Source: a virus
Direction: 5' to 3' (one strand)
DNA length: 22,592 nt
IMG/VR virus record: IMGVR_UViG_3300048006_000060
Location: 1-22,592 of that record
Shown one piece after another: positions 993-21,519 of the stretch (positions within the stretch are counted from its first letter, which is position 1; every line of letters begins with the position of its first letter). The position numbers were made by a program, and so were the translations under genes. The notes beneath the pieces were generated by a model. That model was not told the origin of the DNA. It was given only the letters and a program-made list of their open reading frames with translations, and ran no database searches.

Positions 993-3572
993 ATGGCTAA
1001 GTATTGGGTTATTACCTCTAACGCCAAGGGGGGAGCCGCGAGTCCCTTTACCGGAGATACCGCTCGCGCTGTTCAAATGACAGAGCAAGAGTTACGTCAG
1101 GTATATCGGGACTCTGGTCAGATACAAGATCATTTTGGTTCCTTTGAAACCTACATGACTTACATTGGTGAGTCGCAGGAGTGGATACAATCTGCTGACT
1201 GGATGAATGCTACAGTTGAGTACGGCATTGGTGAAAGAGAGTGGCTTTATAATAACAGAGAAGATGTCATGTATCGTCCCGGCGAAAGGGACAAACTGCA
1301 GGTCAAAATTCAGAGCGATTTAACAAACGCAAAGCAGTCTGCTTATATGCTCTGGCTTAACGAGGGCGCTGAGCTTATGGATAAGTGGGGTCTTAACCGC
1401 GTTATCTATAACAGCGACGGCGATCAGTTTAAATGGACTGGATCAGGCTACCAGAAGACCATGAAGGTAGACGATCACCCCAGTTTTGGTGATTACGCCA
1501 AAGCTATTGTCACAACTGCGGTTACTGCGGCGGCTACTTTTGGAATTTCCAGCACTGCGGCAGGGGCGACACTAAATAGCTTCTTTACATCTGCTGGTTT
1601 GTCATCCTCAGCGGCGACTGCGGCAACCTCAAGTATCATAGCGTCAGGAATAGGCGCAACCCTAGGACAAGACGTTACTCCAGAGAGTCTACTAATTAAC
1701 GCCTTGGGTGCTGGCTTAGGCGCAGAAGTGGCTGGTCTTGCTAACCTTAGCGGGGCCGCTGGTTCGGCTCTATCTGCTACAGTTTCTGAAGCTGTTGTCC
1801 AAGGCCTCACGAACGGTGAGTTGGACTTTAGCGACCTACTACAGGCAGGATTATTAGGAGGAGCCACAGCAGTAGGCTCTGACCTATTCACGGCACTAGT
1901 CAAAGGTCAAGACTTTACGTTTGGCGGTTTAATAGATGAGGATTCTGCGCTTTGGGACTTCTTTAACGGAGAAGGTGGGATAATTACTGAAGTAAGTGCC
2001 GCTTTTGATAAGTTCTATGAGCAACAGATTACTGGCGGTGAGTGGTGGGAAAGCACTACCGAAGACTACAAATCTATAAATACGCTTGAAGACGGTACAA
2101 TAATAGCCACTAGATACGACGGCACAACTCAGAAATTTGACAATTTTAAAGCTTTTGCTGATGCTGGGTTCGTAGAAATGACAGGCAAAAGCGAAATATG
2201 GGACTTAATAAGCAAGGGAACGGACAGTATTCCAGACTCTTGGTACGACGCGTTACAGGATTGGCTAAGAGATAAAGCATCTGGAGGTTCTTATGAAACT
2301 GAAAGTGGGACTACTATTACAGGGCCTCCCACCAACGAAACAACAGACCCTGATGACTTTGACTGCTCATCAGTAAACCGACAGCAAGTAGCAGGAGCAA
2401 CTACAGGAACAGAGTGTGGCCCGTGTATAGAAGAATACGAGGCTAACGAGTTTGGTGAGTGTGTAGCAACGCTAGGTGGCGACACTTGCCCAGAAGGGCA
2501 GTATTACAACGAAGTAACTTTTGAGTGCGAAGACGAAGTGTTTTTTACTAAGGGCCAGCCCTGTAACACCGCTGACGGTCAACAGGGAATCTTTGATGAC
2601 GAAGGCGGTTGCTACGTTCCTGCTGGAAACGGCACTGGAAACGGCACTGGCGATAGCACTGATGGCAATGGCAATAGCACTGGTGGCACTGGTGGCACTG
2701 GTGGAACAGGAGAACCGGAACCTTGTAGCAACGGCGCTACTATAGAAAGCGGGTGTGAGCTATGTGAGGATGGAACGCGAGCAGATGAACACCAAGGCGG
2801 TAGATGCTCTGGAGCCTACATTGATCCCCAAGATCCCTACAGTTGTTCTGCAGGTAGGCCGAGTGCGGCAACTTTTCAACTTAGAACATGGAACGCCATG
2901 TGTGAAGCTGACTACTGCAACGATGGATCACGCAAGCAAACAGTAGATGGTGTGTACGGGGCCAACTGTGCAGAGTACGTGGCTCCTACCCCCATAGAAT
3001 CTTGTGCAGACCCTGACAGACGAACCACCAACAGCGGATCTTGTGCGGAACTCTGTAACGATGGGACTATACCAGACCAACACGAGGAAGGCTTGTGCGG
3101 TAACCCCATGATTGCAACAACAGGTGGGGAAGAGCAGAACGGAGACGGAGGAGACACCGACTGCACACTAGTAGAGTGTGATGCTCCTAGGCCTGAAGGA
3201 GAGGCGGGAGTAGCTTGGGACGAGTGCTGTAGTGACCCCGTAGTAGATCTTACTCCCGACGATGGTGAACCAGACTGTACTCTCGTAGAGTGTGAATCAC
3301 CTAGGCCTGAGGGAATTGAAGGCGCTTTGTGGGACGAGTGTTGTACGGAAACAGCAGTCCTTACCCCATCTTCAGGCGGTAGTTCTGGGGGTAGTGGAAA
3401 CAGTGGTGGTCGTGGATCGTCACTAGGAAAAGGTATGTTCGACAGTAATTCTATTAGTATGGGAGGCGACCCTCAGTTACTGGCCGCAAATCAGTTCCCT
3501 ATTACAGACTTCTTGGCGCAAGTCTTTAAACCCAAGAAACCACAAAACAACGGAGGCGGGATGCTAACATGA
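993..3572 (+). CDS. Large virion-type protein with hydrophobic Ala/Gly segment and 28-cysteine domain
   Basis: An 859-residue protein I do not recognise by family. Residues 1-165 are mixed, soluble and Trp/Tyr-rich. Residues about 168-305 are a long Ala/Gly/Ser/Leu-rich stretch (runs such as AIVTTAVTAAATFGI and LLQAGLLGGATAVG) resembling membrane-active segments. Residues 306-450 are acidic and mixed. Residues 458-784 hold all 28 cysteines of the protein, broken by an Asn/Gly/Thr low-complexity linker (about 545-573). Within this part a C..LC.DGT..D.H..G.C pattern occurs twice (588-605 and 684-702), and a 24-residue unit DCTLVEC...WDECC occurs twice (722-745ish and 761-784). The C-terminus is Gly/Ser-rich. 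The gene lies between fibre genes and tail tubular protein A, so a tail or ejection role is likely but inferred. Its stop overlaps the next start (ATGA at 3569-3572). Confidence 0.8.
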   Translation: MAKYWVITSNAKGGAASPFTGDTARAVQMTEQELRQVYRDSGQIQDHFGSFETYMTYIGESQEWIQSADWMNATVEYGIGEREWLYNNREDVMYRPGERDKLQVKIQSDLTNAKQSAYMLWLNEGAELMDKWGLNRVIYNSDGDQFKWTGSGYQKTMKVDDHPSFGDYAKAIVTTAVTAAATFGISSTAAGATLNSFFTSAGLSSSAATAATSSIIASGIGATLGQDVTPESLLINALGAGLGAEVAGLANLSGAAGSALSATVSEAVVQGLTNGELDFSDLLQAGLLGGATAVGSDLFTALVKGQDFTFGGLIDEDSALWDFFNGEGGIITEVSAAFDKFYEQQITGGEWWESTTEDYKSINTLEDGTIIATRYDGTTQKFDNFKAFADAGFVEMTGKSEIWDLISKGTDSIPDSWYDALQDWLRDKASGGSYETESGTTITGPPTNETTDPDDFDCSSVNRQQVAGATTGTECGPCIEEYEANEFGECVATLGGDTCPEGQYYNEVTFECEDEVFFTKGQPCNTADGQQGIFDDEGGCYVPAGNGTGNGTGDSTDGNGNSTGGTGGTGGTGEPEPCSNGATIESGCELCEDGTRADEHQGGRCSGAYIDPQDPYSCSAGRPSAATFQLRTWNAMCEADYCNDGSRKQTVDGVYGANCAEYVAPTPIESCADPDRRTTNSGSCAELCNDGTIPDQHEEGLCGNPMIATTGGEEQNGDGGDTDCTLVECDAPRPEGEAGVAWDECCSDPVVDLTPDDGEPDCTLVECESPRPEGIEGALWDECCTETAVLTPSSGGSSGGSGNSGGRGSSLGKGMFDSNSISMGGDPQLLAANQFPITDFLAQVFKPKKPQNNGGGMLT
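2625..2709 (+). repeat. Low-complexity GGCACTGG-type repeat coding an Asn/Gly/Thr linker
   Basis: Imperfect short repeats of ggcactgg, ggaaac and ggcaat run through this stretch and encode a Gly-Asn-Gly-Thr / Gly-Gly-Thr linker (about residues 545-573 of the 859-residue protein). It separates two cysteine-containing parts of the protein. Such tracts commonly vary in length by slippage. Confidence 0.75.
3159..3344 (+). repeat. Tandem 72-bp coding repeat with paired cysteines
   Basis: Two 72-bp units, 3159-3230 and 3273-3344, start 114 bp apart. Each encodes 24 residues of the form DCTLVEC-x-xPRPEG-...-WDECC, with four cysteines in identical places. The units are diverged at the base level but share cctaggcctga and gggacgagtg blocks. 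They lie at the end of the cysteine-rich domain. Confidence 0.85.
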
Positions 3573-4252
3573 CGTACTTAAACATAGTAAACAACGTGCT
3601 TAGACGCCTCAGGGAAGATGAGGTATCTAGCGTACAGTCTACGGCGTACAGCAAGATGATTGGTGACTTTGTTAACGATGCCAAGTCCATTGTGGAGGAC
3701 TCTTGGGATTGGTCTGCGTTGCGTAACACGTTGGCAGTAAATACCACTAAAGGAACTTCTGTGTACTCTCTGGTTGGCGCAGGGAGTGACCCTAAGGTTC
3801 TCTACGCTTACAACGACACCGCTAACTGGGACATGGAGTACCGTACGCCAGCTTGGATGGATCGTTGCTACACGATGCAAGAGCCCGTCTCTGGTTCTCC
3901 TATGTACTTCACGTTTAACGGCGTAGACAACAAAGGGGATGCCCAGATTACTGTGTACCCCGAGCCTGACAAAGATAACGTTAGCCTCTGTTTCAAAATA
4001 GTTAACCGAGGAGAGATAAAGGAAAGCTCGTCTGTGTTTCGCCCTAAGATGCTAGAGAACGATGCAGATAAGGTAGTCATTCCTTACTTACCTGTACTAC
4101 ACCTTTCGGTGGCCTTTGCGTCCCGTGAGCGTGGGGAGACGGGGGGTACGTCTACTTTAGAGTACTTTGGGATAGCTGATAAGGTACTGAGTGACGCTAT
4201 CGCTATGGATGCACAGAAGCACCCAGAAGAAACCATTTGGTACACTCCTTGA
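3569..4252 (+). CDS. Tail tubular protein A (T7 gp11-like)
   Basis: A 227-residue protein, close to the size of T7 gp11. The N-terminal helix (YLNIVNNVLRRLRE) followed by a FVNDAKSIVEDSWDWSALR helical segment (about residues 33-51) is typical of podovirus tail tubular protein A / head-tail adaptor proteins. The middle is beta-rich, with a YPEPD motif near residue 131, and a helical C-terminal part follows. In this family the protein forms a ring of subunits that joins the portal to the tail nozzle. The start is fixed by the ATGA overlap with the preceding gene, and tail tubular protein B follows 12 bp after the stop, the usual order. I am fairly confident from size, order and sequence style; a profile search was not possible. 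Confidence 0.75.
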   Translation: MTYLNIVNNVLRRLREDEVSSVQSTAYSKMIGDFVNDAKSIVEDSWDWSALRNTLAVNTTKGTSVYSLVGAGSDPKVLYAYNDTANWDMEYRTPAWMDRCYTMQEPVSGSPMYFTFNGVDNKGDAQITVYPEPDKDNVSLCFKIVNRGEIKESSSVFRPKMLENDADKVVIPYLPVLHLSVAFASRERGETGGTSTLEYFGIADKVLSDAIAMDAQKHPEETIWYTP

Positions 4253-4264
4253 GGAGACTAGTGC

Positions 4265-5833
4265 ATGTCACAGCCACTACAAAGCATTAATCTAGTTGCT
4301 CCGGGTTTCAAAGGAGTCAACACAGAAGACTCACCTATAGCACAGGACTTCTCTTTTGCGGACGTTGCTGACAACGCTGTAATTGACAAGCGTGGGCGTA
4401 TTGCGGCTCGTAAGGGTGTAGACTTATTTACTACTGACAAGACACTTCTTGGGGATAGTTACGCCACGAAGATTCACCACTTCTACGATGACGCAGGCAA
4501 CGAAGAAATCTTTGTCACAGGCAACAACAAGATATTTAAGACTTCCACTACGGTAGATCCTGAAGATACTTTAGTTGACATTACTCCGGCGGGGTACACG
4601 GTTACTGCAGACAACTGGAAGATGGTAAACTTTAACGAGAAGGCCTACTTCTTCCAGAGAGGCCTAGAGCCACTCGTGTACGACCATGCCACAGGCCTCA
4701 GGACGTTTGGCGAGGCAACCGGATCACCCACGAACACTGCTTTGTTCTGTAACGAGGCTCTGGCGGCTTACGGTAGGTTGTTTGTTGTGGACAACGGGAG
4801 CGACACACAGACTGTATACTGGTCAGACCTCTTGATAGGCACAGACTTCTCAGGAGGCTCTAGTGGCTCTATTAACGTGTCTAAAGCGTGGCCTGACGGT
4901 TACGATGAGGTTAGAGCGTTAGTCGCTCACAACGACAAGCTGATTATCTTAGGTAAGCACAGCATCCTAGTTTACGGTAACGCCTTCAGTCCTGCTCTGA
5001 TGCTCCTAGAGGACACTATTGCTGGTGTGGGGTGTATCTGCAGGAACTCTGTACAAGGCATCGGTACTGACGTTCTGTTTATGTCACAGGATGGCCTCAG
5101 GAGCTTTGGTCGAACAGTGCAAGAGAAGTCACTACCTATTTCCGACTTGAGTCTCAACGTGAAGACTGAGTTAATTGCTACAATAGACAACAGAAGCTGT
5201 CAGACGGAATCTGTGTACAGTCCGGAGAACTCTTTCTACTTGATTACGTTCCCAGACCAAGAGTTAACTTACTGCTTTGATTTGAAGGGCAGGCTAGAGA
5301 ACAACTCCTATAGGGTTACCCGATGGACCGGAGCACCTTTTAGGTCTTACGAGCGCAAGAATACAGACGGCACTCTTCTGGTAGGGACACCGGACGGCCT
5401 AGGGCAGTACTCTGGGTACTCTGACCAGTACAACAACGGAGGCACGATAGCCCCCTACAGCTACATCTTTAGGTACTTCAGTCCTGCGCTCACATTTGGT
5501 GATCCGTCGAAGCTGAAGTTTTTAAAGAAGCTTAGACCAACTCTGGTTGGCGCTAATAGTGCTATAGTTTTTGTTAAATGGGCATATGACTTTGGTACAT
5601 CGTACACTACGTCAGAGTTTACCGTAGGTAACCAGCGTTCATCCACCTACAACACACCAGATGTAGAGTACACTGTTGCAGAATTTACAGGAGGGGAAGT
5701 AATAAGCAGGCCTCCTTTAAACGGAACAGGCAGTGGTTCAGTAATTACTATTGGTCTTGAGTCAGAAATAAACGGTTTTGCTTTATCTCTCCAAGAAATT
5801 AACGTCTTAGCACTTATGGGTAAAACATTATGA
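4265..5833 (+). CDS. Tail tubular protein B / tail nozzle (T7 gp12-like)
   Basis: A 522-residue, mostly beta-rich protein. The N-terminal phrase DVADNAVIDKRGRIAARKG (about residues 33-51) closely follows the N..ID..GR...R.G pattern of phage nozzle/stabilisation proteins (T7 gp12, P22 gp10 type). Later segments such as VYGNAFSPALMLLEDT and DVLFMSQDGLRSFGR fit the beta-propeller part. It is shorter than T7 gp12 (about 790 residues) but in the range of other marine podoviruses. It would form the hexameric nozzle at the tail tip. The start has a GAGGAG ribosome-binding site about 9 bp upstream. The stop overlaps the next start (ATGA at 5830-5833). Confidence 0.75.
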   Translation: MSQPLQSINLVAPGFKGVNTEDSPIAQDFSFADVADNAVIDKRGRIAARKGVDLFTTDKTLLGDSYATKIHHFYDDAGNEEIFVTGNNKIFKTSTTVDPEDTLVDITPAGYTVTADNWKMVNFNEKAYFFQRGLEPLVYDHATGLRTFGEATGSPTNTALFCNEALAAYGRLFVVDNGSDTQTVYWSDLLIGTDFSGGSSGSINVSKAWPDGYDEVRALVAHNDKLIILGKHSILVYGNAFSPALMLLEDTIAGVGCICRNSVQGIGTDVLFMSQDGLRSFGRTVQEKSLPISDLSLNVKTELIATIDNRSCQTESVYSPENSFYLITFPDQELTYCFDLKGRLENNSYRVTRWTGAPFRSYERKNTDGTLLVGTPDGLGQYSGYSDQYNNGGTIAPYSYIFRYFSPALTFGDPSKLKFLKKLRPTLVGANSAIVFVKWAYDFGTSYTTSEFTVGNQRSSTYNTPDVEYTVAEFTGGEVISRPPLNGTGSGSVITIGLESEINGFALSLQEINVLALMGKTL

Positions 5834-6084
5834 GCAACTACACAAAGACAACTAACTTTGCCGCTAAGGATAGTTTGCCTTCTGGAGACCCCGGCAAAAT
5901 TATCCGAGGCACTGAATTTAACGTAGAGTTTGACAACATTGCCACTTCAGTAGCAAGCAAGGCAGACTCTAATAACCCAACGTTTACAGGTCAGTTAACT
6001 GTGGGCGACTTAACCGTAACGGGAGATGTCACTATGAATCTAGGTGACTCCGATACGGTGACTATTAACGGAGGGACCTACTAA
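5830..6084 (+). CDS. Short tail-fibre N-terminal / adaptor-like protein
   Basis: An 84-residue protein whose first part (GKIIRGTEFNVEFDNIATSVASKAD) matches the style of the N-terminal attachment region of podovirus tail fibres, including the common phrase FDNIATxVxxKAD followed by a PTFTG beta repeat. The remainder is a beta-repeat (LTVGDLTVTGDVTM) and ends abruptly. A complete fibre would be several hundred residues longer, so this is either a separate adaptor that joins the tail to a fibre encoded elsewhere (the genes at 1-973 are candidates) or a reduced fibre. Start and stop are both overlapped with neighbours (ATGA at 5830, TAATG at 6082-6086). Confidence 0.7.
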   Translation: MSNYTKTTNFAAKDSLPSGDPGKIIRGTEFNVEFDNIATSVASKADSNNPTFTGQLTVGDLTVTGDVTMNLGDSDTVTINGGTY

Positions 6085-20837: not shown

Positions 20838-21314
20838 CTAGACAGCCTCCCTACCGTACCACTTCATCGGTATACCACGGGCGTCCCAGTCATCAGCCTT
20901 GAAATTGTAGTAAATCTGGTATCCTAAGACAGCGTCAGGCCGTTTGCACTCGTCCGGCATACACTGAGGCGGGTCAGTGAACCCACGGATGCCCTGTAAG
21001 GCCACAGGAGGCCGCTGAAGAGCTTTAAAGTGCTCCCTAATGGTCTTGTGTACCTTAGAATAACGTCTCTCGTACTCCCTCCCAAGGGCTCCTAGGTGGT
21101 ACAAGGTCCACTCGTAGTGGTCTAGGGATGACCGGACCCAGACTGCACTAGGATGGTTCTTGTGGGTAGGCTTGTACGCCACCTGTACACCGTCTAGCTC
21201 TACGTGGGCAGTACTGAGAAGCTGGGCAGTCTCTAGGATCATCTTAACCACGTGTCGGTCACACTGAGCCTCAGCGGCCTGTGTGGGGTCACGTGACAGG
21301 TAAAATATGTTCAT
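20838..21314 (-). CDS. Conserved phage protein of MNIFYL..DP / CDRHVVKM type
   Basis: 158 residues from the ATG at 21312-21314, preceded by TGGAGG and one base after the upstream stop. Signature phrases are MNIFYLSRDP, CDRHVVKMILETAQLLSTAH (about 18-37), YKPTHKNHPSAVW (about 47-59), and a C-terminal QCMPDECKRPDAV (about 116-128) followed by an aromatic YYNFK and W. I recall this as a widespread but uncharacterised phage family, with only a loose resemblance to the pyrimidine-dimer glycosylase (Pyr_excise) pattern. Conserved His, Asp and Glu residues suggest an enzyme. I do not assign a reaction. Confidence 0.8.
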   Translation of the reverse strand: MNIFYLSRDPTQAAEAQCDRHVVKMILETAQLLSTAHVELDGVQVAYKPTHKNHPSAVWVRSSLDHYEWTLYHLGALGREYERRYSKVHKTIREHFKALQRPPVALQGIRGFTDPPQCMPDECKRPDAVLGYQIYYNFKADDWDARGIPMKWYGREAV

Positions 21315-21315
21315 T

Positions 21316-21519
21316 CTAAGCCTCCAGTATGCGTGATAGCTGAGTATACACGGAATACATGGCACTTTCAACGTCTACCGTGTCCCCTAGTCTACCCTGT
21401 ACAAAATCTTCTATTGTCATACCCTCCAGATCAGCAGTACAGCCAGAGTAGTTTAGTAACTCTGTCAACACTTCGGCTTGCTTCTCAGTAATGGTTAAGT
21501 GTACTGCGTCCCTGTGCAT
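21316..21519 (-). CDS. Small hypothetical protein
   Basis: 67 residues, ATG at 21517-21519 with GGGAG about 9 bp upstream. Largely helical and acidic: LTITEKQAEVLTELLNYSG then DLEGMTIEDFVQGRLGD and a C-terminal helix. No family recognised. It lies 2 bp after the upstream gene and 1 bp before the conserved 158-residue gene, so it is part of the same transcript. Confidence 0.7.
   Translation of the reverse strand: MHRDAVHLTITEKQAEVLTELLNYSGCTADLEGMTIEDFVQGRLGDTVDVESAMYSVYTQLSRILEA

Follow-up and report, generated by a model that had tools for sequence, protein, structure and literature searches.

How does a virus made inside a bacterium come to encode a putative virion protein whose cysteines are crowded into one part of the chain, and what could these cysteines be for? 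Disulphide bonds are unusual for proteins made inside a bacterium, and an architecture of many small disulphide modules is characteristic of the extracellular proteins and venoms of animals. The gene in question lies in a 22.6-kb IMG/VR record, all 22,592 nucleotides of which were analysed and are called here the window. The window comes from an uncultured T7-like marine podovirus and has a structural cassette on the + strand and replication genes on the − strand (class II ribonucleotide reductase, endonuclease I, endonuclease VII, family A DNA polymerase and T7-like primase-helicase). The cassette consists of a fibre-like gene, the gene under study, an SU10-type adaptor gene (PF24175), a nozzle-like gene, a short fibre-like N terminus and four larger proteins, which resemble ejection proteins by position and composition. 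In the sequence ATGA the stop codon of the gene under study overlaps the start codon of the adaptor gene. We refer to the position directly before the adaptor gene as the slot, and to its occupants as slot genes and slot proteins. The division of the cysteine-rich region into eight units (4, 2, 2, 4, 4, 4, 4 and 4 Cys) is our own, made from the spacing of the cysteines and from homologues. The features are as follows.

993..3572, + strand: slot gene, encoding an 859-residue modular Cys-rich protein (same position and overlap in relatives)
993..1472, + strand: N-terminal domain, residues 1–160, without cysteine (AF2 pLDDT mostly 70–94); one among several alternative N-terminal types in the family
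1485..1907, + strand: Ala/Gly-rich, mildly hydrophobic helical region, residues 165–305 (low-confidence model)
2364..2462, + strand: Cys module 1, CSSVNRQQ...ECGPC...GEC, 4 Cys at residues 458, 475, 478 and 490 (sequence and homologues)
2487..2528, + strand: Cys module 2, CPEGQYYNEVTFEC, 2 Cys at 499 and 512 (sequence and homologues)
2562..2612, + strand: Cys module 3, putative single-disulphide hairpin CNTADGQQGIFDDEGGC, 2 Cys at 524 and 540 (sequence and family pattern; the hairpin pattern has 66 matches in the family)
2613..2723, + strand: Gly/Thr/Asn-rich linker without cysteine (sequence)
2724..2807, + strand: Cys module 4, CSNGATIESGCELCEDGTRADEHQGGRC, 4 Cys at 578, 588, 591 and 605 (sequence)
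2844..2969, + strand: Cys module 5, residues 618–659, 4 Cys at 618, 637, 642 and 659 (sequence)
3003..3098, + strand: Cys module 6, CADPDRRTTNSGSCAELCNDGTIPDQHEEGLC, 4 Cys at 671, 684, 688 and 702 (sequence)
3159..3230, + strand: Cys module 7a, DCTLVECDAPRPEGEAGVAWDECC, 4 Cys (sequence and family pattern)
3273..3344, + strand: Cys module 7b, DCTLVECESPRPEGIEGALWDECC, 4 Cys, tandem copy of 7a (sequence and family pattern)
3348..3569, + strand: Gly/Ser-rich hinge and putative C-terminal anchor motif (DPQLLAANQFPITDFLAQVF...), common to Cys-free slot proteins
3569..4252, + strand: adaptor gene (SU10_adaptor, PF24175), which fixes the slot (Pfam; relatives)
4265..5833, + strand: nozzle or tail-tube-like structural gene, a syntenic marker (relatives)

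As the original prediction had stated, all 28 cysteines fall between residues 458 and 784 (window positions 2364–3344), and the remaining 532 residues contain none. Elsewhere in the cassette the structural proteins have 0–6 cysteines each, several of them 0 or 1, so the slot protein stands out within its operon. Residues 450–790 contain 70 acidic and 12 basic residues. Two motifs had been predicted to occur twice each. The 24-residue DCTLVEC...WDECC unit (LVEC unit) does so, at residues 723–746 and 761–784; with 53 of 72 nucleotides identical, it is a genuine tandem repeat whose copies are separated by 114 bases. The pattern C..LC.DGT..D.H..G.C was fitted exactly by one stretch (CAELC, residue 684 onward), and its supposed second copy (CELC, residue 588 onward) has the spacing C.LC; the two are related motifs that differ in spacing by one residue.

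The set of slot proteins was gathered through the adaptor gene and not through the Cys-rich protein itself, which removed the bias of searching by cysteine motifs. All relatives are metagenomic contigs. More than 100 contigs of marine podoviruses have a slot gene directly before an SU10-type adaptor gene; in the mapped relatives its stop codon usually overlaps the adaptor start. The slot is hypervariable: the proteins vary widely in length and content, some are short and free of cysteine, and the IMG/VR relatives build the Cys region from the same set of modules, differently ordered and in different numbers. The named phages closest to the window by DNA polymerase infect Pelagibacter and roseobacters; they are HMO-2011-type and related phages such as HTVC103P, CRP-3 and CRP-235 (46–49% for HTVC103P/104P/115P), which are also among the nearest by the nozzle-like protein. 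Where phages of this type were examined, the capsid region is followed by the adaptor gene and there is no Cys-rich slot gene.

The number of cysteines in the slot proteins is even. Cysteine occurs in 70 of the 118 distinct full-length slot proteins (2 to 80 residues each), and not one of the 70 has an odd number. The first set comprised 57 distinct full-length proteins (39 with cysteine, none odd). A second set, which served as a held-out test and makes up about half of all slot proteins, was collected by means of two further adaptor profiles; it comprised 62 (32 with cysteine), with one odd count, the 33 cysteines of L127. The slot gene of L127 (2449–4638) is frameshifted: the reading frame ends without the anchor, and the next frame adds nine cysteines and the anchor up to the adaptor gene. 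This break is either a frameshift or an assembly error, and L127 is left out of the total of 118.

Fifty-two of the 118 proteins have at least 10 cysteines (mean 40.6, 21 distinct counts). In these same proteins 15 other residue types gave odd numbers in 20–31 of the 52, and the cysteine counts of other ORFs from the same contigs were 57 odd and 48 even. Slot proteins cut by a contig end, in which parity may have been lost, were odd in 7 of 26 cases. The adaptor tree requires at least 60 changes in cysteine number, all of them even, and the 29 Cys-rich proteins of the first set fall into 16 clusters at 50% identity. Because the slot sequences are related to each other, a chance probability of 2^-70 would overstate the case. 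Tandem duplication was ruled out as the source of the even counts, the effect being absent from all 15 other residue types, and so were wrong start codons, as parity was kept despite automatic choice of the start. In sequence analysis an even number of cysteines is accepted as a signature of pairing (PMC3177088; PMC7678975). It has been used as such for hyperthermophilic archaea and the viruses that infect them, whose intracellular proteins are rich in disulphides; in those hot environments the trend runs through the whole proteome (PMC3177088), whereas here, with no exception in the sample, it marks one protein family of marine phages beside Cys-poor virion proteins.

The original prediction had offered two roles for the cysteines, disulphide formation and metal binding. 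Binding of metal, in zinc ribbons or knuckles or in iron-sulphur clusters, would be in keeping with the CxxC motifs (CGPC, CELC) and with the histidines in DEH and DQH. The numbers point elsewhere. Of the 52 Cys-rich proteins 24 have counts of 0 modulo 4 and 28 of 2 modulo 4; as the counts split evenly, the unit is the pair and not a four-cysteine metal site, and on these counts such sites are excluded as the general unit. Many units have just two cysteines, histidine is scarce (mean 2.9 per protein against 40.6 for cysteine), and no metal-binding family was found in Pfam for the slot protein, even at E-values up to 5. We consider metal binding extremely improbable. The absence of odd counts strongly supports the disulphide alternative, which is nearly certain on the evidence of the sequences, and every cysteine is very probably disulphide-paired in the mature protein.

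Are the pairs formed within the modules or between chains? The LVEC unit has four cysteines in all 34 sequence windows across the family; the counts of the other modules rest on patterns that fix the cysteine number and are no independent evidence. In slot proteins with a single pair the two cysteines are 10–31 residues apart. Because of the constant LVEC count and the short distance within single pairs, the modules are likely to be closed locally. There is a precedent for the opposite arrangement, in which inter-chain disulphides join the copies to each other, making a stiff rod or locking the tail. In Agrobacterium phage Milano, which has Cys-rich structural proteins, the solved structure shows disulphides in the tail; they hold sheath and baseplate together between chains, the gain proposed for them is extracellular stability, and the authors ask how the bonds come to be reduced when the phage infects (PMC10811340). 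Milano and the slot family would be alike in having Cys-rich virion proteins whose disulphides form despite assembly in bacteria (PMC10811340). The Milano bonds join sheath and baseplate subunits, whereas the slot family has apparently locally closed modules, up to 80 cysteines per chain and a T7-like podovirus background. Cross-linking between chains would allow odd counts, the spacing of single pairs fits local loops, and the linkers are long and flexible in make-up. Parity thus argues against extensive inter-chain cross-linking, and a Milano-like architecture appears improbable. The suggestion that the domain stiffens an appendage stands in part: the beads themselves are probably closed and compact, but with flexible Gly/Thr/Asp linkers between them the chain would be a robust flexible string and not a rod.

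The Cys modules, of two or four cysteines each, are self-contained and are gained and lost whole. The slot proteins of L050 and L051, whose adaptors are identical, are 99.5% identical outside a 74-residue block with 10 cysteines located at a repeated CAEYAAANPEECG; the N terminus of L051 is longer than that of L050. Between the window and its nearest homologue, L006, identity is 84.7% in the Cys region, 59% in the adaptor and 38% in the N-terminal part; between the window and L010 the adaptor is 87% and the Cys region 54% identical. Since Cys region and adaptor disagree in these two comparisons, the Cys region is exchanged independently of the backbone. On the adaptor tree the state Cys-rich or Cys-poor changed at least 17 times. 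The slot protein lies within the structural cassette, carries a conserved segment that could anchor it, and turns over faster than the neighbouring structural genes, as judged by comparison with the adaptor.

Fast turnover fits receptor binding; it also fits a neutral or an immunity-evading spacer. The Cys region could be a neutral spacer whose sequence carries little weight, with selection acting on the anchor only, as the wide variation of the slot in length and content and the occurrence of short, Cys-free proteins might suggest. Against this, all 28 cysteines are conserved between the window and L006, 16 homologues keep every one of the eight cysteines in the first 91-residue block, and no intact gene breaks parity. 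These observations make a neutral spacer highly improbable.

Several contigs have a second Cys-rich gene close before the slot gene: L049 (1949–4306), L055 (2273–4246), L061 (1379–3565) and L085 (1264–2979), with 22, 14, 16 (from the first ATG) and 14 cysteines, respectively. Further such genes in L149 and L192 have 48 and 54 cysteines, counted from stop to stop. By their C-terminal tails, which are of the same kind, and their even cysteine numbers, we class the six as tandem slot paralogues. Among Cys-poor occupants of the slot, the protein of L002 (7911–9815) has one cysteine pair, long GTG/GDGTGD repeats and a thrombospondin-3-like acidic stretch (DTNDSDGDGIPDRFD); in others TTD, NNT, PPETVL or collagen-like GAD repeats replace the Cys modules.

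Known domains were sought in the window protein and six relatives with Pfam and PHROGs; no match was found in the Cys region. EGF-like, furin-like, TIL and CBM14 domains gave no Pfam match above the curated cut-off (CBM_14, E 4.5, and Antistasin, E 3.3, were both below it). In three relatives (L008, L011 and L016) the slot protein carries a fused DUF4214 domain at its N terminus. No cultured phage matched the protein; tblastn of three family members found nothing among 50,697 phage records, and two scans of bacteria and archaea, one genome for each of 84,980 species, found no match either. A sequence profile against the PDB gave weak matches only, nearly all to linkers of antibody constructs. 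The original prediction had named a confident match to a known metal-binding or non-virion domain as evidence against it; Pfam, PHROGs and the PDB returned no such match. We found no report of a Cys-rich slot family in the literature.

The AF2 model of the whole protein was poor (pLDDT 54), and that of the first Cys block was moderate (79.5), with short beta hairpins. Foldseek searches of the PDB and BFVD and VIA-align comparisons with the AF2 models found no significant fold match (no VIA-align Z of 2 or more). The top Foldseek matches of the moderate model were mostly small disulphide-rich domains of animal proteins (EGFR/HER, mGlu5, factor IXa); with E-values above 1 they are not significant, and the EGFR-like matches were set aside as evidence of homology. 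The slot family resembles EGF-like, furin-like and other small animal modules in its short repeats, spacings of the type CxxC..GY......C, even cysteine numbers and shuffling of units. It differs from them in having no Pfam or PDB sequence match and no significant fold match, in its cysteine spacing, in being encoded by phages and in lacking a signal peptide.

Both Cys-rich and Cys-free slot proteins end in tails of the kinds FPITDFLAGLFTG or QKDYMxELDxxIxRSLFEGM, usually after a run of glycines. A profile made from the tails of Cys-rich proteins matched 48 of 93 Cys-poor slot proteins and 9 of 740 other ORFs, most of these nine being tandem paralogues that occupy a second slot. As the tail is conserved, it is likely to be a virion-docking peptide. 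At the other end of the chain, a hydrophobic signal-like N terminus was found in none of the 52 Cys-rich slot proteins, which makes secretion before assembly unlikely. The position of its gene, the C-terminal anchor that it shares and an N terminus unlike a signal lead us to infer that the slot protein is probably attached to the virion.

Two other destinations have to be weighed. The protein might be a secreted or lysis-time effector that shares the late operon by chance; this would agree with the missing family match. The fixed place within the structural cassette, the anchor common to otherwise unrelated slot proteins and the absence of signal-like N termini speak against such an effector, which we regard as rather improbable. 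Alternatively, the protein could be packaged and, like an ejection protein, ejected into the cell envelope together with the genome, so that its modules are oxidised in the periplasm. The bacterial periplasm oxidises thiols, the Cys modules are preceded by the Ala/Gly-rich, mildly hydrophobic helical region (best 19-mer hydropathy 1.44, under the typical membrane-helix level), and likely ejection-protein genes follow later in the same cassette. However, the window's four candidates for ejection proteins contain 0 or 1 cysteine each, the slot gene lies before the adaptor gene and adjoins fibre-like genes, and hypervariability is less expected in a translocation channel. Neither PHROGs nor Pfam matched the slot protein to T7-like ejection or internal virion proteins. 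Ejection seems unlikely.

The best supported reading, and one that we consider fairly probable, is a virion appendage made of a string of disulphide-closed mini-domains, which would be oxidised after lysis and reshuffled in the manner of receptor-binding proteins. The slot protein would be made and attached in the reducing cytoplasm, its short C-terminal peptide docking it on the neck or tail near the adaptor. The Cys-rich part would consist of mini-domains of about 15–40 residues with two or four cysteines each, carried on flexible, strongly acidic Gly/Thr/Asp linkers. The cysteines would pair within each module after lysis, in oxygenated sea water, or at contact with the periplasm of the next host, and each oxidised module would be a compact bead resistant to protease and salt. 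As each bead would be closed by its own cysteines, recombination could then insert, remove and swap beads, and no cysteine would be left unpaired. Such shuffling would result in rapid turnover of the host-facing surface, as expected for a receptor-binding or adhesion device. We lean slightly towards such a role for the slot protein. Marine phages vary their host-recognition genes most (PMC3909814), and the slot gene is like their host-recognition islands (tail fibres, C1q, lectin-like; PMC3909814) in being a structural-region gene that outpaces its neighbours in turnover. The identifiable genes of those islands carry known binding domains (PMC3909814), whereas slot proteins carry none.

Tentatively, the shuffling of disulphide-closed mini-domains at one fixed genomic slot might be how a large marine podovirus clade diversifies the appendage that binds its hosts, an appendage made in reduced form inside the cell and folding only once the burst releases it into oxygenated water. 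If true, this would be a bacterial-virus counterpart of the EGF- or knottin-type modular receptors of animals. The slot may decide the host choice of these marine phages. A phage protein family with up to 80 strictly paired cysteines and no secretion signal was absent from every library searched. It makes testable the question of when and where a phage particle folds its outer parts, and whether release into oxygen is the trigger, and the family may be a source of new disulphide-rich scaffolds.

Genes for thiol chemistry were sought in ten related records. The thiol oxidase Evr1_Alr was found in none, in a search that had no working control. Glutaredoxin-family ORFs are present in three of the ten (behind L036, L042 and L158); they may serve thiol handling, and ribonucleotide reduction explains them as easily.

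Two further genes of the window deserve mention. An 84-residue ORF (5830–6084) is homologous to the N-terminal 70 residues of an 810-residue fibre-like protein of L002, whose gene has another place in the gene order of L002; the ORF is either what remains of a fibre cut down to its attachment domain or an attachment adaptor. On the − strand, positions 20838–21371 encode a pyrimidine dimer DNA glycosylase-like protein (PF03013).
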